Source: Spiroplasma endosymbiont of Clivina fossor (GTDB lineage Bacteria; Bacillota_I; Bacilli_A; Mycoplasmatales; Nriv7). Taken from it: a stretch of DNA of 64,000 nucleotides. The position numbers and the translations under genes are program-made. Location: NCBI RefSeq assembly GCF_964031115.1, contig NZ_OZ035006.1, positions 1,737,605-1,801,604 of the forward strand, given 5' to 3'. Every line of letters starts with the position of its first letter. Positions within the stretch are counted from its first letter, which is position 1. Shown here piece by piece: positions 4,857 to 36,138 of the stretch. The notes beneath the pieces are model-generated. The model was not told where the DNA came from. It did no database searches and worked only from the letters and a program-made list of their open reading frames with translations.

Positions 4857-4971
4857 TGTAAGGTAACACAGACATTTTAGACCAGTAAGAATGTTCCTCT
4901 TAACAATAATTTTTTAAAGGAGGTAGGTATTTTAATTAATAAAATTAAACTAACTTTATTAATTTATTAAC

Positions 4972-4983
4972 TTGTTCGAACAA
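4972..4983. promoter_or_regulatory. TTGTTCGAACAA palindrome near element end
   Basis: A perfect 12-bp palindrome in the left end of element 1, repeated in the corresponding end of element 2 near 32600. It is shaped like a dimeric repressor site, and the core resembles Gram-positive LexA-type GAAC/GTTC half-sites. No regulator is assigned. Confidence 0.35.
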
Positions 4984-5079
4984 AAACTAAATTCTATTTA
5001 AAAAGTTGTGTTGTAAATATGAAAACACTTTTTAGGTGTGCCAAAAAATGCTTTTTGGTAATTTCGAGCATTTCTCGTA

Positions 5080-5161
5080 CCTAGTTAGCTAACATAACTT
5101 AGTTAAACATAAGAGAAATAACATAGATTTCTTAGATAGTTAACTATGTTAGCTAACTAGG
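5080..5161. promoter_or_regulatory. Operator-like inverted repeat upstream of the early genes, element 1
   Basis: CCTAGTTAGCTAACATA (5080-5096) is repeated perfectly inverted at 5145-5161, with further AACTTAGTTAA half-sites between. It lies about 80 bp upstream of the first early gene. The motif family matches the palindromes upstream of the homologous plectrovirus genes, suggesting a common or cross-acting repressor. Confidence 0.5.
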
Positions 5162-5238
5162 AAATTGCATATAAGGAAGGATATATATTATCTTTTTACA
5201 AAAACCAAAAAATTATTGATATGAGGAGTTAATAAATA

Positions 5239-5616
5239 ATGACTAACTTAAAAAATTTATTTTTGAATAAAAAATATATTGTTGCTGAAACAACAAATGC
5301 GATTTTACTATCAATTCCCAATAGTGGTGGTGGTTCTTGAGTTCCTAGAAAACTAGTATACCCATCAATTAAATATGCAAATCAGATGGTGATCGGTATT
5401 TTTCCAGAAAATGATTATGAAGTTATTAAGTATGATGCCAACGGTGCACAGAAAATTACAACCATTAAGGGGCAAGAAATTATTAATTTGTATGAAGAAG
5501 TTAAAATTAAAAATCGACAAAAATTTTTAGAAAATATTAAAAAATCTGAAGCTGATAAAGATATTAATTTTAATTATATTATTCCCGAATGACTAAAAGA
5601 AACTGATTTAAATTAG
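5239..5616 (+). CDS. First early gene of element 1, plectrovirus-related, 125 aa
   Basis: ATG after GAGGAG. The N-terminus MTNLKNLFLNKKY and a central MVIGIFPENDYEV align with the plectrovirus proteins at 4206-4535 and 41815-42141. A charged C-terminal extension is added here. Presence of the same family at the head of a filamentous-phage operon and a tailed-phage operon indicates exchange between the two virus types. The function is unknown, with an early DNA-related role possible. The element 2 copy at 30891-31268 is nearly identical. Confidence 0.75.
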
Positions 5617-5641
5617 TTATTAAATCTTGAACAAGTACGAA

Positions 5642-5866
5642 ATGGCTAAAAAATATTGTTATGTTATATATTCTTGCGAAACCAATGAGTTAGTCGGTGT
5701 TTATGATAGTGTTGGTGAAATTGTAGAACGCTATTATGGACTTTCGCGTAATGATCCTAATTTTAAACGAAAAGTACACTCATTAGAAACTGTAATTTAT
5801 TACAAGAAAAAAGCCATTCGTCCGCGGAAATGAATTATTTATAAAGAAATAATTGAGGAAGATTAA
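5642..5866 (+). CDS. Early small protein, 74 aa, unknown
   Basis: The frame is open from a TTG at 5627, but ATG at 5642 is preferred; neither has a strong ribosome site, so coupling to the upstream gene 25 bp away is likely. The protein is mixed alpha/beta (KKYCYVIYSCETNELVGVYD) with a basic C-terminus. The same gene is conserved at 30641-30865. Confidence 0.6.
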
Positions 5867-5869
5867 TTA

Positions 5870-6115
5870 ATGGAAAACAAACATTTTTATTGACTTAAAG
5901 CGTTACGCCAAAAATATTCTTATAAAGAAATAATTACAGCGTTAAAAGCAATTAATTGTCAATTAAAAGAAAAATCATTGCAATGTGAGTTTAAAAGAAT
6001 AGAAAATTATTGTAAGCGAAAAACTAAAAAAACTTATGATTATCAAAATTGCTGTGTGCCACAAGAAAAATGTACTCATTTTCTTTGCTGACAACACATA
6101 AGAAGAAAAATATAA
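5870..6115 (+). CDS. Small basic Cys/His protein, 81 aa, possible DNA-binding
   Basis: Starts four bases after the previous stop. The N-terminal half (LKALRQKYSYKEIITAL) looks like a helix-turn-helix, and the C-terminal half has Cys at NCCVP, KCTH and FLCWQH that could bind zinc. Likely a regulator or nucleic-acid-binding protein; this is an inference from composition. Conserved at 30392-30637. Confidence 0.55.
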
Positions 6116-6202: not shown

Positions 6203-6646
6203 ATGAATTATATAGTTGGTATTGACCCCGCAGGAATCGGTTCTACTGGTATTGTTCTTTGGAATTTTGAAAATTCATGCATTGAATTTAACGAAACAAT
6301 AATTTCTGAAAGCGTTGAACAAGCAATTTTTAAAATTAAAAAATTATTTGATAATTTTAAAAGAATAGAAAATTTTAAGCCATTGTTTATTATTGAAAAT
6401 TTTTTCTTAACTAAAGGTAGAACGATTACCAATCCTTTAGCAACCTCAGAACTTATTGGAGCAATAAGCAGTCTTTTAAGGTTTAAATATCATTGGCACT
6501 TTCTTAGACAAGAGCCTTCTAAAAAGAAAGGATTTTTTTACAAAGGAAACTTAAAACTTACCAAACACGAGCACGATGCGTGAAAGCATATTCAATACTT
6601 TTTGGGTAATGAGGTAAAACAAAATGTTAAAAGCACTAAAAACTAA
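6203..6646 (+). CDS. RuvC-like Holliday junction resolvase, 147 aa
   Basis: The N-terminal strand GIDPAGIGSTGIVLW contains the first catalytic Asp of the RNase H-fold RuvC/YqgF family. LFIIENFF supplies the second acidic residue, and KHEHDAWKHI the terminal acidic pair. Such enzymes resolve branched phage DNA before packaging. The final 21 residues lie beyond a UGA-Trp codon. It overlaps the SSB-like gene by 23 bp, so the two are translationally linked. The copy at 29861-30304 differs at one early residue. Confidence 0.75.
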
Positions 6647-6989
6647 AAAAGAAAATGAAGTAATTAACTATGTTAATTTTGTAAATTTGACAGTTATTTT
6701 AAAAGATATTCCCAAAATCACAGAATTTAAGCAAAAAATAGCTATTAGTAGTGTTGTTGTTAAAGTTGTTAATGTTCAAGTTAGTTGAGCGGGTCTTAAT
6801 TACACAACGCTCTCTATTTATGAAGAAAAGTTGCAAAAAGAATTCTTAAAATTAAAAGAACACGATATTATTTTAATTGAGGGAAAATTACACAATCGTT
6901 ATTATCCAAATAAGACCACCCACAAAACATTTTTTAGCATTGAGGTTGAAAAATTTAAAAAAATTGGAAAAAAAAGAAAAAATAAATAG
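6624..6989 (+). CDS. SSB-like OB-fold protein, 121 aa
   Basis: Strand-rich sequence with IILIEGKLHNRYYPNKTTHK, which matches the L45-type hairpin of single-stranded DNA-binding proteins (VEGKLRTRSY), and a Lys-rich C-terminus instead of the usual acidic tip. It follows a resolvase gene, in keeping with a role in phage DNA replication or recombination. Homologue in element 2 at 29518-29883. Confidence 0.6.
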
Positions 6990-7581: not shown

Positions 7582-8436
7582 ATGGCGTTTTTTATTAATG
7601 TTGACCAATTAAGAACATTGGTTTCAAGCAAATGAAGACCCGAATTTCCACGAACAGGAAGTTTAATTCACCAACTTTTTGCAAATGAAATAGCTTTTAC
7701 CGAATTTGAATACGGTGAAAAGGTAGTTATTCCACTTGCAACGGACGGAGTTATTAATAAAACATGAGACCCAAATACTGGTTCCAAATCTAACTATGCA
7801 ACGAGAAAAAAAATAGAAGCTACCTTGGACAAGGTAATTGATATTCAAGAACGCATAGGGCGTTTAGAGAGTAAAGCAGTAGGTCCCAAATTCATTGAAA
7901 GTAAGATTATTCGTCTTCGTCAACAAATGGCTGAAATTTATGACAAATACGATGCTGAACAATTAGTGGCTGGTGGTACAGCAATTGCAACCGCAAAACC
8001 GATTACTAAAAACACAATTCTTGAAGAAATGGCAAAAATGCGAATTGCTGTTGTCAATTCTGAAAATGAGTGGACAAGTGGTTTCTTGCTCGCGACGGCT
8101 GATGTAGTGACCGAAGCTACTTATGCGAAATTGGTAACCGCTTCTCCTGATGGTGTGCTAGGTATGGTTAACGGAGTTGTCGGTGTTGTTAATGGTTGTA
8201 TAACTATTGAAGTGCCTAAATCTCGCTTGCCCGAGAATGTTAATATGATATGAGTTAATACTTTGGCATATGCGACATTTACAGGTATTGATTTGCCTAT
8301 GGATGTAGGTATGTATACAGACGAAAAATATATGGGACAAGTTTATATTGCTGAACGAGAATTTTTTACTGGTAAAGTTGCTGTAGCCAAAATGGTTCAT
8401 TATCACAAAACAACACCAGACTCAGGTGGAGACTAA
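7582..8436 (+). CDS. Major capsid protein, 284 aa
   Basis: It lies between the scaffold-like gene and virion genes. It has a long central helix (RIGRLESKAVGPKFIESKII), a core domain with repeated hydrophobic strands (LGMVNGVVGVVNGCITIEV) and ends in FFTGKVAVAKMVHY, typical of HK97-fold coat proteins. Codon use is richer in GC than its neighbours, as expected for an abundant virion protein. Two in-frame UGA-Trp codons lie in the N-terminal part and one near residue 224. The element 2 copy has a different C-terminal tail. Confidence 0.7.
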
Positions 8437-8494: not shown

Positions 8495-10141
8495 ATGCCC
8501 ATTGGAACTAATATAACTGCTTTGCAGTTGAGAGTTATTAAAACTACGCGGTTGCCTCAAAAACAAGAAAATGATTTTTTACTGGAATTATTAAAATTTG
8601 TTGGTGTGCAAGTCATTGGTATTTTATTAGCAAAATTTACTGCGGGTCTGTCGCTAAAATTTTCTCTAAGTGCTGGATTATCAAATTTAACATCCCAATT
8701 AATTGCTTCAAGTGTGCGCGTTGTAACTGATTTTACAATTAATCAAGTCTATGATATTTATAAAGAACAAAGTAATACAATAAACACTTTACTTAATTTA
8801 ACGCCAGCTATTGGTGAAATTAGTAAGATATCAAGAGCTTATAAAACAACAAAGTTTTTTAATCTAGCGAAAGAAAATAAAATTATTAATCACTTAGGAA
8901 TAACAACGGCTAATAATTTAGAGCAGGTTATTTCGCAGGTTCATAATAAAAAAATTATTCTTGACAAATATAAAACTTGATTTGACTATACTAAAAAACC
9001 AACTAAAGAAACCATGCTTAATCATTTAGGATTTTTGGCACGAAAACAATTTGTTAAGAATTATAAAAGTTCAAATGTAACAACATTAGGTCAACTTTTG
9101 GAAATGGAAACATTACTAAGAAAAATTAATCCTAATCTTGTAACTAAAACAAGGATATTTAAAGAAAAATGAGGTAATCAATTTTTAAATCGTTACGGAA
9201 CAAACATTAATGAAATTTCAAAAATGCCAACAGAAAATTGATTTAATTTAATTACCCAGATGCAAAAATCAGGAATTCGTCAAGGTACATTATTGTCACT
9301 AAATACTTTACGAGCAGAAAATGTTTTTCGTTCTCAATTTCTTAAAAGATTTAATAAAATTATGGAAAAATCAAAAAAATTACAAAAATTGTCGCCAGCA
9401 TATCAAATTCAAAAAGGTTTAAATAAAGTGTTTGAACCTGTAAGAAAAACGATTAAAGAGATAGAATTAAAGACTAAAACCAAAATTCAAGAATATACAA
9501 ATTTTAAGAACATTATTTCAAGAGTGCAAAAGAAAATAATTACCGATGGTACTTTATTGCCATTAATATCTGATGTCTTTTTTGCAGTCAAAGTTAAACC
9601 AACAGGAATACTAACAGATATTGCGATTACAATTTACTACCAAAATCCTGAATATCGACCAATAGGACCAATAATTACTACTCCCTTAAAATTACAACAG
9701 TTAATAACTGCATCTAGTCCTTTTAAATTTTATATGTATGAAAGTGGTTGATCAATTGGTTGGGGTAAAACTAAAGGTAACATATTATCTTTAATGCCAT
9801 TTTTACCAGCAAATGTTCAAGAATTTTACATCAATAGCATAAAGTTATATCGAGTTTTAACTCCGCTTTTAAAAATAACTTATGACCGTTATAAAGAAGG
9901 AAATTTATTTAAAGTTAAAGAAAATTTAAATCAAGTTTTTAATAAAGACAACTATGTTAATTGAGCCGTTGATAGCGTTTTGGGTAAGGGAATTGTTTGA
10001 CGAAATGTTAAAAACCGCATTGTTAGGCCACTTGTTAAAAACAAAAATATTAATTTTAAAATTAATGCTAAAAATATGATCCAAAAACAAATAACTAAAA
10101 AAATTACTACTATCAATAAAAAACTAAATCGGAAGTGATAA
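8495..10141 (+). CDS. Large virion protein with N-terminal membrane-active region, 548 aa
   Basis: Residues about 28-75 are hydrophobic and glycine/serine rich (GVQVIGILLAKFTAGL), then the protein becomes basic and helical. The frame passes several UGA-Trp codons. It lies between capsid and tail-type genes. A membrane-penetrating internal or ejection protein is one possibility for a short-tailed phage, but no family motif was recognised. The element 2 copy (26364-28010) is intact. Confidence 0.55.
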
Positions 10142-10144: not shown

Positions 10145-11494
10145 ATGCTCTTAAAAGAACTTTGACCAAATATAACCATTAATGGTTATCATACTATCAA
10201 ACCACTTACTGGAACCTTAGATGCTATACCATCTAAATATAAAGATTTAAATTTTGCTAATTTTGATGATTGATTTAAAACTTTCGCTTTAAGAGCTCAA
10301 AATGATTGCAACATGTATCTTGACTTTATCTTTAATAAGTGAGAATTTACTACTTTTCCTGATGAAATTAAAGAAACCGTTATAGACATGATTTATATTT
10401 TGATTGAGCATTGAGTGTTTAACAGAGTTCCAGTTGAATTTTTTGTTGATGCAACAAATAATTTGAATATTTCTAGTACAAGTTATATCGCCTCTACTCT
10501 AGCAAATAATACTCAAGATAGGATTCCACAAAGAGTTAAAGCATTAGCTAATTTTACAGAATTAAAAAATTTTTTAATTCCTTATAATGATGAAAATACA
10601 GTTGATGCCAATATGATTGATTTAGGTTTGTATTACAGTAAATTTGTTGTTGATAAGTTATTAGAAAAAGAAAAAAATGAACGATTAAAAAAACAATTAA
10701 AATTTTTTCAAAGTCGCTGTCAGGATTACACATGCCCCCAAAATCCTAATCTTAGAGGGCCTGTAACTAATTTAGTTATTGAGGAATATGCAAGTTCTGA
10801 TTATGAACATGAAACAGAAACTTTAACGGTATCTTTCCCTAAACAAATTGGCACTTTACCACCAAATGCTTTACAACCTAATCCTCAAGAGGGCGATTAT
10901 ACGCACGCTACAACAGCTGATTTTTCTGCCAAATTACAAAAGCAACTAAATTTGATTTTTCAAAATTTTCAAAATATCCAAAAATCGTTAATTGGAGCGA
11001 TTGCTTGATTTTCTCAATTAAAAAAATTGGAAGAGGGTTGACTGCCACTTTCAGAAAAGGCATACACCGTCATTCTTGCCGACGGCAGTCAATTGGTGAC
11101 GCCTAGCCTTCGCGAGGGCGATTTTGTGCGACACAAAAAAGACAATCCTTTAAACGCAGAAAATGACAATGTCGGTCACCACATTCATCCGATTTATGTG
11201 GCTCCGAAATTAGACAAACCCAATTCTTCTTTTGTTTTCAAATGAAAAAAAAATTATTTTTTTACAACAACAGGGTGAAATGTGGGCACAATGCCCCACA
11301 CGCCGGAAGATTCTGACATTGTTATGCAGTCCTCACTTATTTTGGATGCTTGACCAAAAGAGGTCCCGGAAGAAATTTATTTATTTTTTTCAGCCGAAAC
11401 AGAAAAAAATGAAACTGATATTTTAGAAACCCGCCCACAAAATACTAGTTTAATAGCTCACATTTATGTGGGCCTAGGGGCTAAAATTAAATAA
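10145..11494 (+). CDS. Tail-type virion protein with compositionally distinct C-terminal domain, 449 aa
   Basis: The N-terminal 290 residues have ordinary AT-rich codon use. A central Pro-rich linker (PPNALQPNPQEGDY) leads to a C-terminal domain with GDFVRHKKDNPLNAEN and NVGHHIHPIYVAPKL, encoded by DNA that is strikingly GC-rich for this genome (about 11030-11390). The domain still uses UGA for Trp. The layout, attachment domain then variable distal domain, suggests a tail fibre or receptor-binding protein. Element 2 copy at 25011-26360. Confidence 0.5.
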
Positions 11495-11785: not shown

Positions 11786-11918
11786 AAAATTATTTTGATT
11801 GAAAATGTTAATTTACTTTTTAAACTTTATTACTCTAGGACTTGTACCTTTGGGGAAATTAATTTCTGAAAAAATTGAAATTTTAAAAAAACAAGTTGAA
11901 GAATTGGAAAGTAAATAA
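11778..11918 (+). CDS. Small membrane protein, 46 aa
   Basis: One transmembrane helix (about residues 6-28) and a short C-terminal coiled coil. Its start overlaps the previous stop and its TAA overlaps the next ATG (TAATG), so the three genes are coupled. It may be a second lysis-type protein. Confidence 0.55.
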
Positions 11919-13180
11919 TGCCATTACGATTTACTAAAAAATGATTTAGTGATAAAGATGATAATGTAGTAGTTAAAAAACGCGAAATTGAAAAATCAAT
12001 TTTGCGAATGTATGGTTTTGCTCCTTTTGGTCATGAAGATTATTATAAATCGTATGTGTCCGACACTATGGCTAATGCATTAACTCCTAAGAAGTTGGAA
12101 ATTAATATTAGTCAACAAGATTTATCACCAAAAATAATGGCATGACTTTATAAAAATGATTTTCAAAGTAAAAACTGGATTAATGAGAAACGAGCTAGCG
12201 ATATTGGTATTTCAGCATTTCTAATTTTTTTAAATCAAGGAATTATGAATTTTCAACCCATACGAGTAGCAGAGCGAGAATATGATGTGTTGGGAAATTT
12301 AATTCAATGTACAATTTTTTACGACGACTATAAGAAAAATAATCTTAATTTACGCATGTACGAAACTTACCAATTAGAAAACAGCAAAGTAAAAATTACG
12401 CGTGAAATTTATGAACTAAGCACCAAAAAAATTGTTGACAATAATGGCACTTCCAAATTAGAACAAACAATAATAAAAGTTAATGATTTTGAAAAACAAC
12501 GCAATAATGAAAAATTAAATATTAACCAAGTTTTAGAAATTAATTACATACCAATTGCAATTTTTTCTAATTTACCAAGTGAGCGTGCTGACATCGCTGG
12601 TGTTGAAGATAAATTGAAAGCTTTAGATATTTTTTATGAACAAAGCATTCTAGATGCGATTTTAAACGCCACAAGATTTCTTATTAATACAAATTCACTT
12701 GTTGGTAATGTTCAAAAAAATGTAAATAAGATTATTGATGATTTTATTAAAAATCATGTTTTAGTCATGAATTATGATCAAGCACAAAATCCAATACCCT
12801 TTTCTACTATTAATGGTCAATTTAGAGGAAAAGAATTAACTTATTTATATGATTGAAATGTGACCGAGATTAATAAACGGATTGGAATGCATGTACCTGC
12901 AATTCATAAAGGGGCTCAACAAACTCGTCAAGAAAGTTCTGCGGTTAATATTCAAACTAACAATATGCTCGAGCAAAAATTATTATTACGAGAAGAAGCC
13001 CATGCAAACTTTATTTACTTACTACTTAAATTTGACCGCGACTTGAATGGTAACAGTTTTATTTCAAAAGAACTTGAAAAAATGACAATCAAAGTCAATT
13101 TGAATGTAACGACCACAATTGGTAAAGAAATTAATAATATTGATATGAAAGGACAAGAAAATGGCGGATTGGAAGACTAA
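11918..13180 (+). CDS. Portal protein, 420 aa
   Basis: The protein has the size and helical core of a small-phage portal. A wing/stem-like region contains IAGVEDKLKALDIFYEQSI and LNATRFLINTN, and a Gln/Glu-rich helix QTRQESSAVNIQTNNM occurs where portal proteins line the channel. It is within the structural operon of an element that also carries a terminase. The identification rests on these patterns and is moderately sure. The frame crosses a UGA-Trp at residue 314. Intact in both copies (23325-24587). Confidence 0.6.
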
Positions 13181-15205
13181 ACCAAGTCAAGAAAATGAAA
13201 CAAAATATCGTGATTATGCAATTGATAATACTCCACTGGACTTTGCAAATTACACCGAACAATCAGACCCTGACTTGCATACAATTTATAACGAAACAAG
13301 AAAACGCGAATTATATATTTACCCTTTAAATAACCTGATTAAAAACACAAATAAACCCCTAATTTATACTTTTCTCCCAATGTTGTTAAAATTGGCTTTA
13401 TTGACCCGTTAGAAGTTAAAAAAACGATTGCTTATGAAGTTAGTGACTTTAATTTAGAATTAGATGCTCGCAATGCTACTAATATTCAAGATAATAGTGT
13501 TGAATATACTATGGTCGATGCCAAGACTATAATTTTTCAAGATGAAAGTTTATACGGCAAATTTAATCTTCATGTTGTTTCTATTGGTGAACCGGCAAAC
13601 GAAAATAATTTGGATGAATTGTATATTATAAATTCTTATACTGAACGCCATGCCCCAAAATCAATTAAGGTAACCAAGGAAACGGTTTTGGTACGGGTGC
13701 AAGATTTTAAAGTTCGTGGTTCTAATCCCATTATTGTCCGTATTCAAAAACAATTGCCCGAAGATACAAAGGTTAAAGCAATTACTATTAAATTTCCACG
13801 GCAAGCTTTATTTGGAAATATTAAATTAATTGGGGAAGTAAACGGCGTGGAGGGTTATCCGCGATTATTTATAGAAAATGACAAGGTTATGTTACCAATG
13901 CTATCAATGCCGATTGAAACTGAACCAAAAGTTAGAATATTGCAACAATGAATGTCTAGTCAAGTTTTAGCATGAGAAAAAGCAAAATTGTTTTTTAATG
14001 AGAAAAGTGCTTTAGATTTGATTACGGTTGGTGGCGGAACAGAATCAAGAAAAAAAGTTTTTATTGATGCAAGAGTAACATCAATGCATATTACTAGAAA
14101 TACACAAAAATATCAGAGTGTACCTGTTGGTTGCCTACCAGTGGATTTATTAAAAGAAAATATTATTTTAAATGAAACAATCACTCTACCTGGTGCTATC
14201 GGCGGACTTAAGCCAAGTTGTCTAGACGCTACCTCATATAATTTAACCAAGAATTATGATAGAGTGGAGTTAGAATTTAAGGAAATATTTAGGATTGACA
14301 GCTTACAAAAAGTATTATTAGACATGTTAGATTATACTTATAACTATCGTTCTAATTTTAAACACGCTAAATATTATTCCGATGAAGATAAACAATTTTT
14401 ATACGGTCAACCAAAAAATGCTGTGGCTAAATTAAAAGAAGAAAAATTTGTTGGTCAAAAACCAGAAATAGTTATTACAAACTTATTTGAAGATTGAAAA
14501 TTTGAAAATCCAAAATTATTAAAACATCCATCAGTACAAATTTTTAAACAAATTATTATGATGCTTTCTGAATATATTTTTTCAGAATTATCTATTAATA
14601 TGGGTTTAAATGACGATTATAAATTATTATTGCCTTATTATTTTGAGCTCATTTCAGTTCCATTGGATGAGGATGGATATTATAAATTTAAAGATGTAGA
14701 AGTTGTTTTAAAATCAGAATATTTTGATTTTCATAATAACCAAATTAAATTAATTAATAATGATATTTCGCAAAATCAATTATTTAAATTGAATAGTAAC
14801 CAGTTTAATTGACTGCCATTAATTAATAATTTGGAACCAAACGACATCCCTAGTTTATTGCCAAAAGATATTAAGTTAGCAGATGGCAATTATGGAAAGA
14901 ATTTTGTTAATTTTATTATTGATAAAAATAATTTAAATTTAGTAATGAAAATTTATGGTAGTAGCTTAAAGAAATTGTTAAGTAATTTTGAGTGAATGAA
15001 CGAAACAAATAAATTTGATAACATTAATAGTTGTAAATTTACTTTAGAAGATGAAATAAAAACTTTTAAACGATTAGAAGTTTCAGCAATTTTTGGTAAA
15101 GGAAAATATAGTTTTGAAATTGAAACTGATGATAAATTAATTAAAATTAATAATATTGATATATTTAATGATAAATTGAGTTCATATTCAGTATTAGAAA
15201 TTTAA
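13161..15205 (+). pseudogene. Large tail-type virion gene, frameshifted in element 1
   Basis: The start overlaps the portal gene by 20 bp. The frame MADWKTKPSQENETKYRDYA breaks near 13358-13375, where element 1 has two extra C residues and lacks three bases compared with element 2. It then reopens and runs, with several UGA-Trp codons, to 15205. Intact length would be 681 residues. It is the last and largest structural gene and is probably a tail knob or distal tail protein. Strand-rich composition and lack of enzyme motifs fit this. Confidence 0.65.
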
Positions 15206-15296
15206 GTTTGATCTTACTGGTTTAAAATGGTTACCTTACACACATAATATAAACGAATCTCCAATATTTATACGAAGTGCATATTTTGTTTACAAA

Positions 15297-17650: not shown

Positions 17651-17725
17651 TTTCTATTTCCTTTTTTATTTTTTTCTATATCAAACACATAAAACAGTTA
17701 ATATCCATAGATAATAATTAGTATA

Positions 17726-21290: not shown

Positions 21291-21297
21291 ATTATCT

Positions 21298-24992: not shown

Positions 24993-25010
24993 ATGATACT
25001 TTCTCCTCTC

Positions 25011-26360: not shown

Positions 26361-26363
26361 TTT

Positions 26364-28010
26364 TTATCACTTCCGATTTAGTTTTTTATTGATAGTAGTA
26401 ATTTTTTTAGTTATTTGTTTTTGGATCATATTTTTAGCATTAATTTTCAAATTAATATTTTTGTTTTTAATAAGTGGTCTAACAATGAGGTTTTTAGCAT
26501 TTCGTCCAACAATTCCCTTACCCAAAACACTATCAACGGCTCAATTAACATAGTTGTCTTTATTAAAAACTTGATTTAAATTTTCTTTAACTTTAAATAA
26601 ATTTCCTTCTTTATAACGGTCATAAGTTATTTTTAAAAGCGGAGTTAAAACTCGATATAACTTTATGCTATTGATGTAAAATTCTTGAACATTTGCTGGT
26701 AAAAATGGCATTAAAGACAATATGTTACCTTTAGTTTTACCCCAACCAATTGATCAACCACTTTCGTACATATAAAATTTAAAAGGACTAGATGCAGTTA
26801 TTAATTGTTGTAATTTTAATGGAGTAGTAATTATTGGTCCTATTGGTGGATATTCAGGATTTTGGTAGTAAATTGTAATCGCAATATCTGTTAGTATTCC
26901 TGTTGGTTTAACTTTGACTGCAAAAAAGACATCAGATATTAATGGTAATAAAGTACCATCGGTAATTATTTTCTTTTGCACTCTTGAAATAATGTTCTTA
27001 AAATTTGTATATTCTTGAATTTTGGTTTTAGTCTTTAATTCTATCTCTTTAATGGTTTCTCTTACAGGCTCAAACACTTTATTTAAACCTTTTTGAATTT
27101 GATATGTTGGTGATAATTTTTTCAATTTTTTTGATTTTTCCATAATTTTATTAAATCTTTTAAGAAATTGAGAACGAAAAACATTTTCTGCTCGTAAAGT
27201 ATTTAGTGATAATAATGTACCTTGACGAATTCCTGATTTTTGCATTTGGGTAATTAAATTAAATCATTTTTCTGTTGGCATTTTTGAAATTTCATTAATG
27301 TTTGTTCCGTAACGATTTAAAAATTGATTACCTCATTTTTCTTTAAATATCCTTGTTTCAGTTATAAGATTAGGATTAATTTTTCTTAGTAATGTTTCCA
27401 TTTCCAAAAGTTGACCTAATGTTGTTACATTTGCACTTTTATAATTCTTAACAAATTGTTTTCGTGCCAAAAATCCTAAATGATTAAGCATAGTTTCTTT
27501 AGTTGGTTTTTTAGTATAGTCAAATCAAGTTTTATATTTGTCAAGAATAATTTTTTTATTATGAACTTGTGAAATAACCTGCTCTAAATTATTAGCCGTT
27601 GTTATTCCTAAATGATTAATAATTTTATTTTCTTTCGCTAGATTAAAAAACTTTGTTGTTTTATAAGCTCTTGATATCTTACTAATTTCACCAATAGCTG
27701 GCGTTAAATTAAGTAAAGTGCTTATTGTATTACTTTGTTCTTTATAAATATCATAGACTTGATTAATTGTAAAATCAGTTACAACACGCACACTTGAAGC
27801 AATTAATTGGGATGTTAAATTTGATAATCCAGCACTTAGAGAAAATTTTAGCGACAGACCAGCAGTAAATTTTGCTAATAAAATACCAATGACTTGCACA
27901 CCTACAAATTTTAATAATTCCAGTAAAAAATCATTTTCTTGTTTTTGGGGCAACCGCGTAGTTTTAATAACTCTCAACTGCAAAGCAGTTATATTAGTTC
28001 CAATGGGCAT
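26364..28010 (-). CDS. Large virion protein with membrane-active region, element 2, 548 aa
   Basis: Partner of 8495-10141, intact when UGA is read as Trp. Same hydrophobic N-terminal segment and basic helical remainder. Confidence 0.55.
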
Positions 28011-28052
28011 AATCTTAAAAAAGCTACCTATATCTATAGCCTAATTTCCTTT

Positions 28053-28925
28053 TTAATGACCACCTTGGCCTTGTACTGCATCCTTGTCTGGTGTTGATTT
28101 GTGATAATGAACCATTTTGGCTACAGCAACTTTACCAGTAAAAAATTCTCGTTCAGCAATATAAACTTGTCCCATATATTTTTCGTCTGTATACATACCT
28201 ACATCCATAGGCAAATCAATACCTGTAAATGTCGCATATGCCAAAGTATTAACTCATATCATATTAACATTCTCGGGTAAGCGAGATTTAGGCACTTCAA
28301 TAGTTATACAACCATTAACAACACCGACAACTCCGTTAACCATACCTAGCACGCCATCAGGAGAAGAGGTTACCAATTTCGCATAAGTAGCTTCGGTCAC
28401 TACATCAGCCGTCGCAAGCAAGAAGCCACTTGTCCACTCATTTTCAGAATTGACAACAGCAATTCGCATTTTTGCCATTTCTTCAAGAATTGTGTTTTTA
28501 GTAATCGGTTTTGCGGTTGCAATTGCTGTACCACCAGCCACTAATTGTTCAGCATCGTATTTGTCATAAATTTCAGCCATTTGTTGGCGAAGACGAATAA
28601 TCTTACTTTCAATGAATTTGGGACCTACTGCTTTACTCTCTAAACGCCCTATGCGTTCTTGAATATCATTTACCTTGTTCAAGGTAGCTTCTATTTTTTT
28701 TCTCGTTGCATAGTTAGATTTGGAACCAGTATTAGGGTCTCATGTTTTATTAATAACTCCGTCCGTTGCAAGTGGAATAACTACTTTCTCACCATATTCA
28801 AATTCGGTAAAAGCTATTTCATTTGCAAAAAGTTGGTGAATCAAACTTCCTGTTCGTGGAAATTCGGGTCTTCATTTGCTTGAAACCAATGTTCTTAATT
28901 GGTCAACATTAATAAAAAACGCCAT
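28053..28925 (-). CDS. Major capsid protein, element 2, 290 aa
   Basis: Partner of 7582-8436. Nearly identical except for the C-terminal tail (DKDAVQGQGGH instead of DSGGD), six residues longer. Confidence 0.7.
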
Positions 28926-28927
28926 TA

Positions 28928-29434
28928 TTATTTATCTTCCTTTCTTTTAAACATTAACTCTTGAGGGGTTAAAGCATCTGATGAAAAAATTATTTCTTCT
29001 GAGTTAGAAGGGTTATTATTTTTATCATCAGCCTTATTTGGAACGCCTCCTGTGTCTAATGTGTGTTTAATTTTTGGCATCGTGACCACAAAATTATTAA
29101 TATCATTTTTAATTACTTCAATATCATTTTCAAAATTAATTGAGTTTTTCACAAAATTAATAAATTGATTATCAATATTAGCATCTTGAATTAATTTATT
29201 AATTTCTTGTTCTTTTTTAAAAGTTAAATATTCTTTTTCTTTGTCGGCAAGTTTTTTTAGTGCATCCGTTTCTCTTTGTAACAGATTTTTTGCTTTTTCC
29301 TGAAAATTAGCAGTATAGTCATTTTGCTCAGTGAAGCCACGATATAAATTTTTCACCTTAAAAGTTCCATCAGCATTTTTTTCGGGTTGTCCGTCTTCAC
29401 CAATAAAGACGATTTTTTTATCTCTAATTTTCAT
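28928..29434 (-). CDS. Scaffold-like protein, element 2, 168 aa
   Basis: Partner of 7073-7579, immediately upstream of the capsid gene, with a few conservative changes. Confidence 0.65.
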   Translation of the reverse strand: MKIRDKKIVFIGEDGQPEKNADGTFKVKNLYRGFTEQNDYTANFQEKAKNLLQRETDALKKLADKEKEYLTFKKEQEINKLIQDANIDNQFINFVKNSINFENDIEVIKNDINNFVVTMPKIKHTLDTGGVPNKADDKNNNPSNSEEIIFSSDALTPQELMFKRKEDK

Positions 29435-29460
29435 TTGGTGTGTACTCCTTTTTCAAATAA

Positions 29461-29500
29461 AAAACTCATTTGATATTCTAATTATCTAATGAGTTTTTCT
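29461..29500 (-). terminator. Terminator after early genes, element 2
   Basis: AAAACTCATT and AATGAGTTTTT form a stem between the SSB-like gene and the scaffold-like gene, matching 7009-7047. Confidence 0.65.
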
Positions 29501-29517
29501 AATTATTGAGTTTTTAG

Positions 29518-29883
29518 CTATTTATTTTTTCTTTTTTTTCCAATTTTTTTAAATTTTTCAACCTCAATGCTAAAAAATGTTTTGTGGGTGGTCTTATTTG
29601 GATAATAACGATTGTGTAATTTTCCCTCAATTAAAATAATATCGTGTTCTTTTAATTTTAAGAATTCTTTTTGCAACTTTTCTTCATAAATAGAGAGCGT
29701 TGTGTAATTAAGACCCGCTCAACTAACTTGAACATTAACAACTTTAACAACAACACTACTAATAGCTATTTTTTGCTTAAATTCTGTGATTTTGGGAATA
29801 TCTTTTAAAATAACTGTCAAATTTACAAAATTAACATAGTCAATTACTTCATTTTCTTTTTTAGTTTTTAGTGCTTTTAACAT
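29518..29883 (-). CDS. SSB-like OB-fold protein, element 2, 121 aa
   Basis: Partner of 6624-6989 with the LIEGKLHNRYYPNK hairpin; overlaps the resolvase gene by 23 bp. Confidence 0.6.
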
Positions 29884-30304
29884 TTTGTTTTACCTCATTA
29901 CCCAAAAAGTATTGAATATGCTTTCACGCATCGTGCTCGTGTTTGGTAAGTTTTAAGTTTCCTTTGTAAAAAAATCCTTTCTTTTTAGAAGGCTCTTGTC
30001 TAAGAAAGTGCCAATGATATTTAAACCTTAAAAGACTGCTTATTGCTCCAATAAGTTCTGAGGTTGCTAAAGGATTGGTAATCGTTCTACCTTTAGTTAA
30101 GAAAAAATTTTCAATAATAAACAATGGCTTAAAATTTTCTATTCTTTTAAAATTATCAAATAATTTTTTAATTTTAAAAATTGCTTGTTCAACGCTTTCA
30201 GAAATTATTGTTTCGTTAAATTCAATGCATGAATTTTCAAAATTCCAAAGAACAATACCAGTAGAACCGATTCCTGCGGGGTCAATACCAATTATATAAT
30301 TCAT
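29861..30304 (-). CDS. RuvC-like resolvase, element 2, 147 aa
   Basis: Partner of 6203-6646; GIDPAGIGSTG, LFIIENFF and KHEHDAW are all preserved. Confidence 0.75.
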
Positions 30305-30315
30305 AAACTAAATAC

Positions 30316-30390
30316 TTACCTTATGACAACTACATTTTTTCGTTGAGTAATCGGAAGCGGTGAACCACGCCTCAATAAAGATTTAGACAT
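30316..30390 (-). CDS. Conserved 24-residue reading frame, element 2
   Basis: Same as 6117-6191. Confidence 0.35.
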   Translation of the reverse strand: MSKSLLRRGSPLPITQRKNVVVIR

Positions 30391-30391
30391 A

Positions 30392-30637
30392 TTATATTTT
30401 TCTTCTTATGTGTTGTCAGCAAAGAAAATGAGTACATTTTTCTTGTGGCACACAGCAATTTTGATAATCATAAGTTTTTTTAGTTTTTCGCTTACAATAA
30501 TTTTCTATTCTTTTAAACTCACATTGCAATGATTTTTCTTTTAATTGACAATTAATTGCTTTTAACGCTGTAATTATTTCTTTATAAGAATATTTTTGGC
30601 GTAACGCTTTAAGTCAATAAAAATGTTTGTTTTCCAT
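30392..30637 (-). CDS. Small basic Cys/His protein, element 2, 81 aa
   Basis: Same as 5870-6115, including the putative zinc-binding Cys residues. Confidence 0.55.
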
Positions 30638-30640
30638 TAA

Positions 30641-30865
30641 TTAATCTTCCTCAATTATTTCTTTATAAATAATTCATTTCCGCGGACGAATGGCTTTTTT
30701 CTTGTAATAAATTACAGTTTCTAATGAGTGTACTTTTCGTTTAAAATTAGGATCATTACGCGAAAGTCCATAATAGCGTTCTACAATTTCACCAACACTA
30801 TCATAAACACCGACTAACTCATTGGTTTCGCAAGAATATATAACATAACAATATTTTTTAGCCAT
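30641..30865 (-). CDS. Early small protein, element 2, 74 aa
   Basis: Same as 5642-5866. Confidence 0.6.
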
Positions 30866-30890
30866 TTCGTACTTGTTCAAGATTTAATAA

Positions 30891-31268
30891 CTAATTTAAA
30901 TCAGTTTCTTTTAGTCATTTGGGAATAATATAATTAAAATTAATATCTTTATCAGCTTCAGATTTTTTAATATTTTCTAAAAATTTTTGTCGATTTTTAA
31001 TTTTAACTTCTTCATACAAATTAATAATTTCTTGCCCCTTAATGGTTGTAATTTTCTGTGCACCGTTGGCATCATACTTAATAACTTCATAATTATTTTC
31101 TGGAAAAATACCGATCACCATCTGATTTGCATATTTAATTGATGGGTATACTAGTTTTCTAGGAACTCAAGAACCACCACCGCTATTGGGAATTGATAGT
31201 AAAATCGCATTTGTTGTTTCAGCAACAATATATTTTTTATTCAAAAATAAATTTTTTAAGTTAGTCAT
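30891..31268 (-). CDS. First early gene of element 2, plectrovirus-related, 125 aa
   Basis: Partner of 5239-5616, differing at two or three residues. An IS5-type element begins 52 bp upstream of its ATG, separating it from the operator region. Confidence 0.75.
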
Positions 31269-31320
31269 TATTTATTAACTCCTCATATCAATAATTTTTT
31301 GGTTTTTGTAAAAAGATAAT

Positions 31321-32389
31321 AGACTTCTTGCAAAATTAATTTAAAATATAATTGAATTGTTGTTTTTAATAAAAAGGTGGAATTTAAATGAAATTTAAAA
31401 AAAATAATCAAATAAGTGATAAAAATTTTTTAAGATTAACTGGTATTAAACATACTACTTTTAATAAAATGCTAGAAATTTTAAAAATAGAAGAATTAAA
31501 AAAGAGATTTCGTCGCGGAAGAACCAATAAATTATCATTAGAAAATCGTATTTTAATGACTTTAGAATATTGAAGAGAATATAGAACTTATTTTCATATT
31601 GCAAAAAGTTATGATATTAGTGAAAGTAGTTGTTATAGAAATATCAAATGAATTGAAGACACTTTAATAAAACACCCTAATTTTCAACAACTTACTGGTC
31701 AAAAATCACTATTAAAAGATTATTTCAAAGATAAGACTGTTATAATTGATGTAACTGAAAGCCAAATCCAACGCCCAAAAAAAGACAAAAACAGCACTAC
31801 TCAGGAAAAAAGAAAAAACACACAATAAAAACACAAGTTATAATTGAAAAAGATAGTAAAAAAATTATTAGTTCTGATTTTTCTTATGGTAAAAACCATG
31901 ACTTTAAAATTTTAAAAGATTCAAAAATTAAATTTTTACCAGAAACAACTGTTTTAGTGGATTTAGGTTATCAAGGCATACAAAAAATTAATCATAATGT
32001 TTTAATTCCTAAAAGAAAATCAAAGAAAAACCCTTTAATATAAAGAAGAAAAGCAAAATAATGAGCGAATTTCAAAAATGAGAATTGTTATTGAAAATGT
32101 TTTTGCTATACTTAAAAAATTTAAAATTATTAGTGAAAAATATCGAAATCGTAGAAAAAGATTTGCTTTAAGATTTAATTTAATAGCTTCAATTTATAAT
32201 TTACAACTATTAGTTTAAATATATTTGATAATTTAAAATTTCAGTCTTTTTTTATTGTAAATAATAATTTTTATTATGTTTTAATGACAAAATATTTGTA
32301 AAAATAATCTAAAAATTATTTTAATAACACTTTTATATTTATTTTAAATTTAAAAATTATAATTATCATATTAATTTTGCAAGAAGTCT
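31321..32389 (+). mobile_element. IS5-type insertion sequence in the early region of element 2
   Basis: Termini AGACTTCTTGCAAAATTAAT and its exact inverse. Comparison with the uninterrupted copy around 5175-5195 shows the insertion point and a likely 3-bp duplication AAT. Same element as at 57834-58901. Confidence 0.85.
31388..32218 (+). pseudogene. IS5-type transposase, disrupted
   Basis: The first frame (MKFKKNNQISDKNF) runs to a stop after an A7 run at 31777-31783, where a -1 shift would enter the second frame. An extra T near 32040 (CCCTTTAATATAAAG) adds a stop before the last acidic residue, so this copy is probably inactive. Confidence 0.75.
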
Positions 32390-32417
32390 AATATATATCC
32401 TTCCTTATATGCAATTT

Positions 32418-32499
32418 CCTAGTTAGCTACCATAGTTAACTATCTAAGAAATCTATGTTATTTCTCTTATGTTTAACTAAGTTATGTTAGCTAACTAGG
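32418..32499. promoter_or_regulatory. Operator-like inverted repeat, element 2
   Basis: Counterpart of 5080-5161. One arm is CCTAGTTAGCTACCATA, with one mismatch to its partner at 32483-32499. Confidence 0.45.
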
Positions 32500-32722
32500 T
32501 GCGAGAAATGCTCGAAATTACCAAAAAGCATTTTTTGGCACACCTAAAAAGTGTTTTCATATTTACAACACAACTTTTTAAATAGAATTTAGTTTTTGTT
32601 CGAACAAGTTAATAAATTAATAAAGTTAGTTTAATTTTATTAATTAAAATACCTACCTCCTTTAAAAAATTATTGTTAAGAGGAACATTCTTACTGGTCT
32701 AAAATGTCTGTGTTACCTTACA

Positions 32723-32736
32723 TCATTTTTCTGAGT
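32723..32736. repeat. Right 14-bp direct repeat of element 2
   Basis: TCATTTTTCTGAGT next to the TTACA terminus. Element 1 sequence resumes here, restoring the codons SELYL and a stop of the Panacea-like gene at 15866. Confidence 0.8.
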
Positions 32737-32822
32737 TGTATTTGTAGATTTATATTTAGAAACATTAAAATAAGCGGTAATATATTAATAATTGTGAATT
32801 AAGTTTAAGGAGGGAAATTAAA

Positions 32823-32933
32823 ATGAAAAGAAAAACAATTAGTTACAGTGATGAAATGATTAAAAGTGGTGTAGAGTTAAATAAGAAAGATAAGTTTATG
32901 AAAGCAATTTCTAAATTATTGGTTAAAAATTAA
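32823..32933 (+). CDS. 36-residue protein, cargo of element 1
   Basis: AAGGAGGG is ideally placed before the ATG. The charged, helical peptide MKRKTISYSDEMIKSG continues to a Lys-rich end. Before element 2 inserted it lay about 80 bp downstream of the Panacea-like gene, so it may be the second member of that cargo pair. No family recognised. Confidence 0.55.
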   Translation: MKRKTISYSDEMIKSGVELNKKDKFMKAISKLLVKN

Positions 32934-33015
32934 AATAATTGAATATGTTTACGCGGGGTTGGATTTTTAATTTGGTTTTGCCAATGGGTAGTAAAGATAA
33001 TAATTTAAAATATGG

Positions 33016-33126
33016 TATTATATACATGGAAGACCTAGGACAAGTTGATTACATGAAGGAATCTAACTGCGGTGTAAACTCAGAACCTCTTGGGCTAAAA
33101 AGGCTATCGTTAACGATAGCCTTTTT
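33016..33126 (+). ncRNA. Possible small RNA with strong terminator in element 1 cargo
   Basis: A TATTATA -10-like box at 33016 is followed by about 75 nt without a ribosome site, then a perfect hairpin AAGGCTATCG/CGATAGCCTT (33097-33126) with T run. The hairpin also overlaps the last codons of the terminase gene on the other strand, so it may simply be a bidirectional terminator. Confidence 0.3.
33097..33126. terminator. Bidirectional terminator at terminase 3' end
   Basis: Perfect palindromic stem with A and T flanks; the terminase stop codon is inside its loop region. Confidence 0.7.
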
Positions 33127-34780
33127 GTTTGCCTCTTATATAAACTCTATTTGGATATAATGCATAAAAGTCTGCATCATAAGGATCGAGATACATTTTT
33201 GGGTCAGGAACATTAGTGCGTTTTTCATCATATCGTAATTCTTCGTAGCATTTGGCAGTAAAAGGATTATTCTGTAAATTTATATGACAATTACCAAATC
33301 CAAACAAATTACGCATTCAAATAACGCGGTCTGTTAAACCGGCTTCTTTGGTTAATGGAGTTGTGTGCTTAATGGCTGTGCTGGTACGAATGTTAAAACT
33401 ATAATCTTCGATTAATTTTGTTTTAATTCATTCCATAGCTGTTTTTGCTTTATCATCATAATTAAAAATAACATGATCAAAATTATAAAAATTTGCTCTT
33501 AAAGTCATGATTTCTTCTATAAAATAACTAATTTTTTCATTTTCAGAAAAATTATCTTCGGGGGTTACAACAATTTCACATATTAAATATGGATCGTAAA
33601 GTTCAGTTTTTTTATATTCTTGAAATCCCCAAAATTTTAGCACAGTATGATCGATTGGCCCAGTTGCTCAATCAACCCCGATACTATAAAAATCAAATTT
33701 ATACATATCAATAGTGGCAACATAAAAATCTTTTAAATCGTATTTTTGTGTATATTTTAAATGTTTTCGAAACGGAAAGATAGTATTATCACTGTCTGAG
33801 TACTCAAAACCATATTTTACAATAGCATATTCATCGGGGTTATCTTTTTTAAGTTGGTTTACTTTTTTTCTTGAAATTTCTGGCAATTTATTTCAAGTGG
33901 AGTCTAATGTTAGTCTTAAAACAAAAATTCCTAAACCCTCAAATTCTTTTTCATTTTCGTATCAGACTTTACCAGTTTCTTTTAATAAATTCATTATCTT
34001 GTCGTTTAATGGTAAAAATGGCGTACAGTATTTTTCATAAAATGGGTGATATTTATCATAGGGGTTGCAAGTGAACGCGACAAAAAAACTTTTTCATAAG
34101 TAGCGCGTTTCTTGTTGTCCTGTCATTTTATCAACAAAGGTTCAAGAAAGTTCTTTTATGGGTTTGTCAGAAATTTTAATCCGATTGCTACGAAACATTG
34201 ACATTTGTAAACGCTCATATCTATAAATTAGTTGTTTATCAGTCAAAGTTTCTTTTTCTTCTGCCATAATTATTTCGTCAGTTCGTGAACACAAAAAACT
34301 AGAACCTTTTACAGCTGTTCCAAAAATTCTATTACCGTTGGCATAACCAATAAAAGTTATTCGTTGATTGGAAGGAAAAATTATTTCTCCGCCCTCTTTA
34401 TTCAATTTTCAAACTATCCCAGTCACCTTAGAGTGCTCAGGTCCAATTTGAATGCCATATTTTTCTTCTAAATATTGACATACATTATGTAAATCAGCAA
34501 TTGTTGTTTCAGAATGTGTATTTTCATAGCGTCGTACTTCTTGAGCGGATGTATCTGTAAAGTTACAACAAATTCATAAATCCCAAGCTAAACAGTTTCA
34601 AGTTTTAAAGGTCATTCTAGCGGTAGGTACAAATCGATAAAAACACCTCGTTGTAAAATATTCTGCTCAATCATCGCCAACTAGTTCCTTAAAGATTTCT
34701 CAAGTAAAACCAAAGTTATTGTCACTAAAATTTAAGTCATATTTTTTATTTAATTGTGAGTAATTAGTTATTTTTTTCAT
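33110..34780 (-). CDS. Terminase large subunit, element 1, 556 aa (intact)
   Basis: N-terminal ATPase with a degenerate P-loop (ARMTFKT at about residues 52-58), SRTDEIIMAEE as Walker B, and FTCNPYDKYHPFY as motif C. The C-terminal RNase H-fold nuclease begins YSIGVDWATG, with VIFNYDDKAK and DPYDADFYAL further on. It packages phage DNA into the procapsid. The frame is open throughout with UGA as Trp, unlike the copy at 17726. It diverges from the transposase gene. Confidence 0.8.
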
Positions 34781-34855
34781 TATACTAATTATTATCTATG
34801 GATATTAACTGTTTTATGTGTTTGATATAGAAAAAAATAAAAAAGGAAATAGAAA

Positions 34856-35968
34856 ATGAAGTATATTGTGCCTAAAAATGATTTAGCAGATTTAAAAGCT
34901 AAATTACAATCTTGAATGACTACGATTTATCATGAAAAATATTATCATAAAGTAAAAAAATGAGTAAGTAAATATCTCAATTTATGTACCAACTTATATA
35001 TGAATAATACAGATAACATATCTGTAAATAAATTGATTAAAAAATATTTTCATGGTAGTAAAATGACATTTTATATTTGAGCTAAAAAAATTATTAATGG
35101 TTATTGTCAAGACAACTTTTATGAATTGCAATTCAAATCAACAACACCAAAAAATATTAAATATCAATTTTCATTAGAAACCAGAAAACAAATTTGTGAT
35201 TATTACTTTGATTACAAATTTGTAGGTGCGGGCGGTGTATTATCGCTTTATCATAATATTCATCAAAAAAATGTGCATGATATCGATACAAATAATGTCC
35301 CCAAATCAATTAATACTTTTTATCGTTGAATTAAACAAGACAAACGCTATGGAGAAATAAAAACGCAAATGAAAAAAGCAAAACGCCATTTTAAGCGTTA
35401 TGAAGTTTCCGAGATTGGTCTTTTACAAATGGATGCTAAAGTGTTTACTGATAAAAATTTTCCTATTGCTAAGCATAGATTATATGTTTATGATTTCATT
35501 GACGAAATAACAAGAATTGCTTTTGGATATGTGTATGATAGTTTAGGAACCAATAATGCCATTAATGCCATGCAAAGAGCAATGAAAGATTTTGGCGAAC
35601 TTGGCATAACAATTAAACGCATTCGCACTGATAATGCTCCGGAATTCACTACTACTAATTGAAGTAATAAAAAAGCATACAAAGTAAAAGAAAGGCCTTT
35701 TACAACCTTTCTTTCAAAAAATGGTATTATCCATGAAACCACACCAATCCGTTCTCCTCAAAGCAACGGAAAGATTGAACGGTTTCACCGTAATTATAAT
35801 AGTTTATTTTGGTTTAAAAAATGTGGTTTTGAAATAAAATTTGATGTTAAGCAATTACAAATTCATTTGAATGAGTGGTACGCATTTTATAATTTCAAAC
35901 GAAAACATAAAAGCTTGAATTACAAAACTCCATTTGAAACTTTAAATAAATTTATTATTGCAAAATAA
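34856..35968 (+). CDS. DDE (rve-type) transposase of element 1, 370 aa
   Basis: Full-length partner of 16538-17650 with the same catalytic residues (QMDAKVF, RTDNAPEF, NGKIERFH) and only a few substitutions. Stop codon 170 bp from the element end. Likely responsible for insertion and possibly replicative transposition of the whole element. Confidence 0.8.
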
Positions 35969-36138
35969 TTATTTAAAAAATAATAGAAACTCGTGAAAAA
36001 TGTTTTAATTTGGTTAATTTTGAATTAAATATTTTTTATTGTGAATAAAATTAATTTTTTTTAATTTTAATAATACAAAATATGGTATTATGAAATCAAT
36101 TAAGAGAAGCATGGTCTAATAACTGTGTGTGATTTACA

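Follow-up and report, generated by a model that had tools for sequence, protein, structure and literature searches.

How does a phage-like element come to lie inverted inside another copy of itself, among plectrovirus proviruses? A locus of the Spiroplasma endosymbiont of Clivina fossor raises this question, and it was analysed within a stretch of 64,000 nucleotides (the window; genome positions 1737605-1801604 of a 2.05-Mb single-contig genome, with reading frames translated with TGA as Trp). The locus holds two units of one element of ~15.4 kb, one inserted into the other, each with the same two termini and its own target duplication. We consider it probable that the element is a small transposon-virus: a double-stranded DNA (dsDNA), probably tailed, phage-like genome moved by an IS481-type DDE transposase encoded inside its right end.

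Two units with the same termini

The window contains inverted repeats of 4883, 3291, 2833 and 976 nt (96-99% complementary), which resolve end to end into two element units. The outer unit runs from its left end at 4857 to its right end at 36138 and is interrupted by the inner unit at 16368-32722, which is reversed (right end 16368, left end 32722). This agrees with an earlier interpretation made from the window alone (the sequence-only reading), which had seen an element nested in its own copy with a separate direct repeat for each unit at different targets. The termini and duplications are as follows.

4842-4856, no strand: outer target duplication, left copy (TTTTTAGAACATCCG, 15 bp)
4857-4883, plus strand: outer element left terminus (TGTAAGGTAACACAGACATTTTAGACC)
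16354-16367, no strand: inner target duplication, left copy (TCATTTTTCTGAGT, 14 bp)
16368-16396, plus strand: inner element right terminus (TGTAAATCACACACAGTTATTAGACTATG)
31321-32396, no strand: insertion sequence within the left end region of the inner copy (HTH_Tnp_4 9e-19)
32696-32722, minus strand: inner element left terminus
32723-32736, no strand: inner target duplication, right copy (14 bp)
36110-36138, minus strand: outer element right terminus (TGTAAATCACACACAGTTATTAGACCATG on the minus strand)
36139-36153, no strand: outer target duplication, right copy (CAATAGG adjoins on the minus strand)

The outer left terminus at 4857 reads TGTAAGGTAACACAGACATTTTAGACC, and the right terminus ending at 36138 reads TGTAAATCACACACAGTTATTAGACC as its reverse complement. 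The ends are of the TG..CA type (TGT..ACA) and stand at variable targets. The two copies of TTTTTAGAACATCCG are the sole exact ones in the window; with two mismatches it occurs at two further places, and four matches were reached in 0/100 shuffles. The inner duplication, TCATTTTTCTGAGT, has its counterpart in an empty site. An uninterrupted copy of 15,373 bp in the same genome (L061; 1558834-1574206) carries, without a break, the 3' end of a 178-aa Panacea-like gene ending FSELYL. The inner flanks joined with one repeat match L061 at 99/120 positions without gaps, and the BLAST pieces are 93% and 96% identical. The sequence-only reading had held that removal of 16368-32736 restores the outer unit and had pointed to an uninterrupted Panacea-like gene ending SELYL; L061 provides this gene.

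The nesting might instead be an artefact, produced by misassembly or recombination in a genome rich in repeats, in which there are many 97-99% copies of the element and in which the inner left junction is seen again in a chimeric context (L073). However, both inner junctions lie at one target position, with a 14-bp duplication and a matching intact empty site. Misassembly or homologous recombination would not yield such one-site junctions, and we regard an artefact as very improbable. L073 (genome 1012000-1031000) has an element half that is 99.5% like the outer copy as compared to 98.4% for the inner, and may be either a recombinant or an assembly problem.

The transposase

Each unit contains a DDE transposase gene inside its right end. 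The sequence-only reading was right that the element codes for such an enzyme; the rve and rve_3 domains identify it, and it is of IS481 type.

34856-35968, plus strand: IS481-type DDE transposase, 370 aa, outer, open (rve_3 3e-13; rve 2e-10; NF033577 3e-45, below cut-off)
16538-17650, minus strand: IS481-type DDE transposase, 370 aa, inner, 97% identical to the outer copy

The protein also matches phrog_8463 (3e-65). It is 49% identical to ORF3 of the plectrovirus SpV1-C74, which scores alike on the IS481 profile; the record of the related virus R8A2B labels its own ORF3 as IS30. Members of the IS481 family duplicate 4-15 bp, and the TGT..ACA ends and 14-15 bp duplications of the element fit this range. 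A MuA-type transposase gave no match, the best families of the enzyme being the IS481 type and phrog_8463. No MuB-like activator was matched among the window proteins scanned (20 with Pfam, including that of the inserted insertion sequence, and 10 with PHROGs).

Copies in this genome and in relatives

Copies were surveyed in 31 stretches fetched from the matches of two genome searches; each search scored at most 40 candidates, which makes the counts of termini lower bounds. These stretches together with the window hold at least 16 left termini (two degenerate) and at least 24 right termini. The terminase has 12 matches in this genome, and eight of them cover at least 494/556 residues. Ten left-right pairs were read in three genomes (seven in this genome, the two window units included, and three in two relatives), and among them are other insertions of the kind that the sequence-only reading had proposed to look for. 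Duplications are exact in 5/10: 15 bp for the outer unit, L061, L104 (genome G001) and L106 (genome G002), and 14 bp for the inner unit. Movement of the element as one unit is well supported by the shared termini, the exact duplications of 14-15 bp in five copies from three genomes, the empty site and the DDE transposase inside one end.

This bears on whether an ordinary insertion sequence landed next to a decayed prophage and is only mistaken for one of its parts. The transposase family is indeed widespread elsewhere in these genomes. Against it, several copies from three genomes have phage genes and transposase together between the termini, flanked by exact duplications, and gene order is conserved; we give this account hardly any credence. 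A composite transposon was also rejected: there is a single transposase, inside one end, and the two termini are unlike each other.

Virion module

Between the termini lie the genes listed below.

6203-6646, plus strand: RuvC/Holliday-resolvase-like protein, 147 aa, weak (phrog_1981, of unknown function, 1.2e-4; phrog_1770, Holliday junction resolvase, 0.087)
6624-6989, plus strand: possible OB-fold protein, 121 aa, weak (Pfam tRNA_anti-codon, E 0.059, below cut-off)
7582-8436, plus strand: possible major capsid protein, 284 aa, outer (phrog_422, major head protein, E 0.018)
8495-10141, plus strand: g8, conserved virion-module protein, 548 aa, outer (32-41% identical in two other lineages)
10145-11494, plus strand: g9, 449 aa, outer (N-terminus conserved, C-terminus variable)
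11918-13180, plus strand: portal-position protein, 420 aa, outer (gene order; relatives 35-41%)
13119-15205, plus strand: g13, 687 aa when intact, frameshifted, outer
15866-16372, plus strand: Panacea-like gene of the outer unit, cut near its end by the inner element (PF13274 1.4e-4, just below cut-off)
17726-19216, plus strand: large terminase, inner, frameshifted
19384-19905, minus strand: Panacea-domain gene, inner (PF13274 5.6e-14)
21298-23386, minus strand: g13, inner, in two pieces
23325-24587, minus strand: portal-position protein, inner
25011-28010, minus strand: g9 and g8, inner
28053-28925, minus strand: possible major capsid protein, inner, 97% identical to the outer copy
33110-34780, minus strand: terminase large subunit, 556 aa, outer, open (phrog_3717 0.0021)

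The 556-aa protein is a large terminase as judged through its relatives; its own match is weak. It is 47% identical to a Spiroplasma citri protein that meets Terminase_3 at 8e-5, just under its cut-off, and a distant homologue (profile match 7.6e-35) matches phrog_2 at 1e-10. For the capsid-position proteins of three lineages the best family is phrog_422 (0.018, 7.8e-4 and 6.7e-3), which is suggestive of a major capsid protein; no similarity to HK97 was seen for this protein in a profile comparison. A match of the capsid query named Ika8 reached 2.3e-5 over the whole sequence, though none of its individual segments passed, and was taken as compositional. The portal-position protein is a possible portal by gene order. 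Profiles of g8 match in 3/4 distant loci and those of the portal-position protein in 2/4. The conserved N-terminus and variable C-terminus of g9 would suit a receptor-binding protein. The homologue of the RuvC-like protein in the S. ixodetis type of relative (see below) matches phrog_1770, the Holliday junction resolvase family, weakly (0.0021).

For a tail, one distant g13 homologue weakly matches a virion structural protein (0.0023) and another a tail protein (0.011). In the window, weak matches were seen to T7 gp14-like (0.01, a 90-aa protein) and to tail fiber (0.08, the capsid-position protein); none of the Pfam- or PHROG-scanned window proteins was convincing as a lysis, small-terminase or tail protein. 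Searches of solved structures with profiles of the terminase, the portal-position protein and g13 gave nothing credible. The profile comparison with phi29, HK97 and T7 proteins was blank and is uninformative, as the terminase against the HK97 terminase was blank as well. The label tailed-phage-like in the sequence-only reading thus stands for the large terminase, through relatives, and weakly for the capsid-position protein; for the portal it comes down to gene order.

A transposon that carries capsid and terminase genes might also be a domesticated or satellite element, which forms no infectious particle alone or packages other DNA. A size of only ~15 kb, the gene complement just described and the state of the window copies fit such an element: the 687-aa g13 carries a frameshift in each copy, and the inner terminase has one as well, so that the units are complete, as had been claimed, in their ends and not in their genes. 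In L061, however, the capsid-position, g8, g9, portal-position, g13, terminase and transposase genes are all open, though one small gene lacks its first residues (the 81-aa gene at 5870-6115 in the window has a match only from residue 10 on). Compared with the G001 copy, from another host species, the four main genes have low ratios of nonsynonymous to synonymous change (dN/dS): capsid 0.11, portal-position 0.14, terminase 0.16, transposase 0.12. The variability of the g9 C-terminus, as in receptor-binding proteins, and the retention of the virion-module genes across several genera also argue against a satellite, which we judge unlikely.

Relatives and their transposases

The terminase was found in 28/320 genomes of the order, distant matches included, and in 4/296 of a class sample that includes this genome. 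In the genus of the S. ixodetis and Danaus chrysippus symbionts, gene order is conserved as far as the loci contain the genes (RuvC-like, OB-like, g8, g9, portal-position, g13, terminase), and the terminase is 61-64% identical. These ixodetis-type elements differ in their ends (GGGAGCG..) and in their transposase, which is of the Mbov_0401/ISLre2 type (Mbov_0401 of integrative and conjugative elements, ICE, at 1.2e-77, above cut-off) and matches UPF0236. The transposase lies within ~3 kb of the terminase in 10/10 loci tested, from 15 non-Nebria loci. A tblastn search at 1e-3 gave no counterpart of the window's capsid-position gene in them. In one of five genomes (G021, L092-L095) tandem pairs of ixodetis-type elements stand at two places, 699358 and 1279088, with ends 5 bp apart (AAAAG and AAAGT), like an inserted circle junction.

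A second group, with terminases 47-51% identical, includes an element on a plasmid of S. citri (pScpLB319-1; terminase 47% identical, same gene order) and loci of other genomes; a UPF0236- or Mbov_0401-type gene is beside the terminase in 7/8 loci. The transposase of the S. citri plasmid element is of UPF0236/ISLre2 type, reaches 143 bits against the Mbov_0401 cut-off of 162, and is 25-35% identical to the ixodetis-type enzyme where aligned. The terminal repeats of this plasmid element were not found, the search giving A+T-rich noise only. Four more distant loci, with homologous terminase and g13, have an Mbov_0401-type gene beside the terminase in two cases and an IS3-type gene in two, one of the latter just below cut-off. 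In the element type of the window, the IS481 gene takes the place that corresponds to these other transposases. On the simplest reading, these elements would have swapped transposases of insertion-sequence type and conserved their virion module. The capsid query had no match among plasmids.

Target sites shared with plectroviruses

The outer unit lies in a plectrovirus-associated lipoprotein gene. Directly to the left of its repeat, at 4827-4841, a plectrovirus provirus has its left terminus (TGTAGAAACCATATACATATG).

4827-4841, minus strand: plectrovirus provirus left terminus (TGTAGAAACCATATA), adjoining the outer target repeat; 11 genome places, 0 control matches
36154-36206, minus strand: target lipoprotein gene, 5' part (MKFLNTIALLGLTTLSIG..)

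Of 30 loci surveyed (six without a match to the search pattern), 23 besides the window's own have the lipoprotein gene without insertion at the outer site, two with premature stops, which supplies the empty gene that the sequence-only reading had proposed to look for. Its claim that removal of 4857-36153 restores the gene in the window fails. Excision in silico leaves a 41-residue chimeric reading frame with ~22 residues from the lipoprotein gene, because the element and the plectrovirus used the same target and the gene stays cut by the plectrovirus terminus. The location inside a plectrovirus locus had been recognised correctly; what was missed is that both used one target and adjoin across its 15-bp repeat. 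At genome position 1702921 the plectrovirus left terminus and the same 15 bp adjoin a plectrovirus right terminus instead.

The arrangement recurs. Among 15 distinct plectrovirus left flanks, three abut the left end of this element and three a plectrovirus right end, across ~15 bp; among nine distinct right flanks, three adjoin a plectrovirus left end and two the right end of this element. The loci counted were chosen around the element and are not random. CAAT (mostly CAATA) starts 21-23 bases outside the right end in 14/26 distinct right flanks (binomial tail 9e-17; 30 right termini from three genomes, with 26 distinct 30-bp flanks), as compared to 0/17 distinct left flanks at the same offset, one degenerate left end being left out. 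Where the motif is present, it lies on the side of the right end, immediately beyond the duplicated bases. The plectrovirus flanks have CAAT at -23 to -21 in 2/15 left and 2/9 right cases. As a target rule, CAAT appears plain for the element and weaker for the plectroviruses.

The window lineage thus appears to share with plectroviruses its transposase type and some target sites. A wider scheme, to which we give about an even chance, is that of a Spiroplasma lineage of small dsDNA viruses that keeps its terminase and virion module, repeatedly swaps the transposase next to that terminase (IS481, Mbov_0401-ICE/ISLre2/UPF0236, perhaps IS3) and, in the clade of the window, shares the kind of transposase and the target sites with an unrelated filamentous single-stranded DNA (ssDNA) virus, so that both stack.

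Mode of transposition

In the mechanism that we propose, the transposase would drive movement of the whole unit. It would either join the ends into a circle (copy-out, paste-in) or copy the element in place, and the terminase would package the product into a capsid that infects the wall-less cells; these last two steps are the least certain. A circle with joined ends may be the intermediate, and we favour it with a confidence of about evens, because circular SpV1-C74, with its related transposase, has its ends only 2 bp apart (transposon-like ends ..TACA and TGTA.. at L109 ~5161-5180). The record of SkV1 starts exactly at an end and is uninformative on a circle junction.

The other mode would make the element a true Mu-like phage, with repeated in-place (cointegrate) transposition and headful packaging from integrated copies, the IS481-type transposase being the main difference. 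This overlaps with a transposon-virus, for which either mode of replication stays open. Many dispersed copies, the TG..CA ends, the presence of a terminase and the lack of a right-left junction in five genomes fit a Mu-like phage. No MuA or MuB homologue was found in the Pfam and PHROG scans, the duplications are 14-15 bp, and the related plectrovirus transposase belongs to a virus with circular-genome ends 2 bp apart. A true Mu-like phage is therefore a lesser possibility, to be kept somewhat ahead of the satellite. The term Mu-like, used in the sequence-only reading, applies at most to strategy: the enzyme is of IS481 type, the duplications exceed 5-6 bp, no MuB-like protein was matched and the element is ~15.4 kb.

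Several observations weigh against a transposon-virus of the kind proposed, or against parts of that account. Two of the ten pairs have imperfect duplications, with two mismatches (L105 of G002; L062/L063), and three have none by eye (103572/110528, 370824/372351 and 2021958/2028041). The transposase scores 155 bits on the IS481 NCBIfam profile (E 3e-45), under the family cut-off of 224. The frameshifts in both window copies have been described; the remaining genes have dN/dS of 0-0.62 against G001, with few changes in the small genes, and some small genes reach up to 1.26 against G002, again with few changes. In the virion module, the S. citri terminase has no PHROG match, the capsid-position proteins of the ixodetis and S. 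citri types have no phrog_422 match, and the portal-position protein matches no known portal by profile. AlphaFold models of the portal-position protein and the terminase (mean predicted local distance difference test scores of 32.6 and 37.2) were too poor for a fold search. In two relatives the IS3 gene may stand next to the terminase by chance. CAAT is missing from the expected place in 12/26 right flanks, some of which abut plectrovirus ends or insertion sequences and were kept in the count. Viral contigs held no relative by terminase, portal-position protein or left terminus, and phage records no terminase relative. An exact right-left junction of the element, with 0-20 bp between the ends, was not found in the five genomes. 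The analysis saw neither virions nor virion DNA of this element, and no circular form of it.

Relation to known elements

Phages that move by transposition are known mainly with MuA-type enzymes, and Mu duplicates 5 bp of target. With the transposable phages (Mu, B3 and Leptospira prophages) the element shares a DDE transposase, TG..CA ends, short direct repeats at many sites, a terminase and possibly a capsid. It differs in an IS481-type enzyme in place of MuA, in that no MuB was found, in duplications of 14-15 as compared to 5-6 bp, and in a length of ~15.4 as compared to ~38 kb. PMC8705779 gives ~38 kb and 6-bp repeats for the Leptospira prophages. On the whole, the sequence-only reading is partly confirmed in what it observed and partly supported in how it interpreted this.

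The plectroviruses SpV1-C74 and SkV1 (Plectroviridae) have TGTA..TACA ends and, in C74, a transposase 49% identical and of the same NCBIfam type; in these genomes, plectrovirus proviruses and the element use some of the same targets. They are, in contrast, filamentous ssDNA viruses; of their genes, the transposase was compared with the element. The transposase of the ixodetis-type relatives is of a type (NF046004) related to mycoplasma ICEs (MICE), which differ in being conjugative and not viruses, with ~20 genes according to PMC7466169, which also treats mycoplasma prophages. PMC12453411 describes a 23-kb sHy2 contig with genes for a portal, a capsid, a terminase and a transposase-like protein; it differs, by description, in listing recT and a small terminase, which have no match in the element scans. 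The same paper gives S. poulsonii particle-derived contigs of ~19 kb and cites Ramirez et al. 2023 for Spiroplasma phage-like contigs. The element and transposase exchange are undescribed in the portions available of the literature searched, including PMC8705779, PMC7466169, PMC12453411, PMC8140453 and PMC13375240 and likewise PMC7187355, PMC11281519, PMC2921349, PMC10232968 and PMC9203015; the search covered few subscription journals.

The combination of phage packaging genes with an insertion-sequence-type transposase, and of relatives with other types, would make the mobility module a replaceable part of a virus, if our account is true. Two unrelated kinds of virus in one cell would then share integration sites and a transposase type, which gives one explanation of why virus loci in Spiroplasma genomes are crowded and rearranged. 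SpV3 is the short-tailed virus group of Spiroplasma; its isolates are old and, to our knowledge, apparently unsequenced, and the element sequences give a reference for testing them.

Insertion sequences and other repeats

The inner unit holds an extra insertion sequence of ~1.08 kb (31321-32396). The same insertion sequence stands at one internal site (element coordinates ~330-347) in four copies; the inner copy and L071 have it in one orientation, L070 and L063 in the other. Descent of the four from one spreading copy was rejected, as both orientations occur; this points to an insertion hot spot, or to an insertion sequence inverted in place. Window copies of this ~1.07-kb insertion sequence lie at 31321-32396, 52376-53440 and 57846-58911; the HTH_Tnp_4 protein was scanned in the first. 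A Mutator-family transposase (Transposase_mut, E 4e-116) is encoded at 54035-55255.

In L066, L083 and others the right end is interrupted by an insertion sequence, each time at almost the same A/T-rich place (bp 68-90). Right ends that match over ~90 bp had been considered another element; this was dropped, since several are right ends with an insertion sequence at ~bp 82. A degenerate left-end fragment lies within the element at 15207-15240 (minus strand) of the window. At 15869 of L075, a left end abuts this same interior sequence, which may reflect self-insertion. A repeat of ~300 bp (L061 element coordinates ~10962-11266) is found whole or in part in L063, L064, L075-L077, L089, L090 and at 60313-63488 of the window. 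Beside the ixodetis-type element of L096, an OTU-like protease gene is located at 17378-18361.

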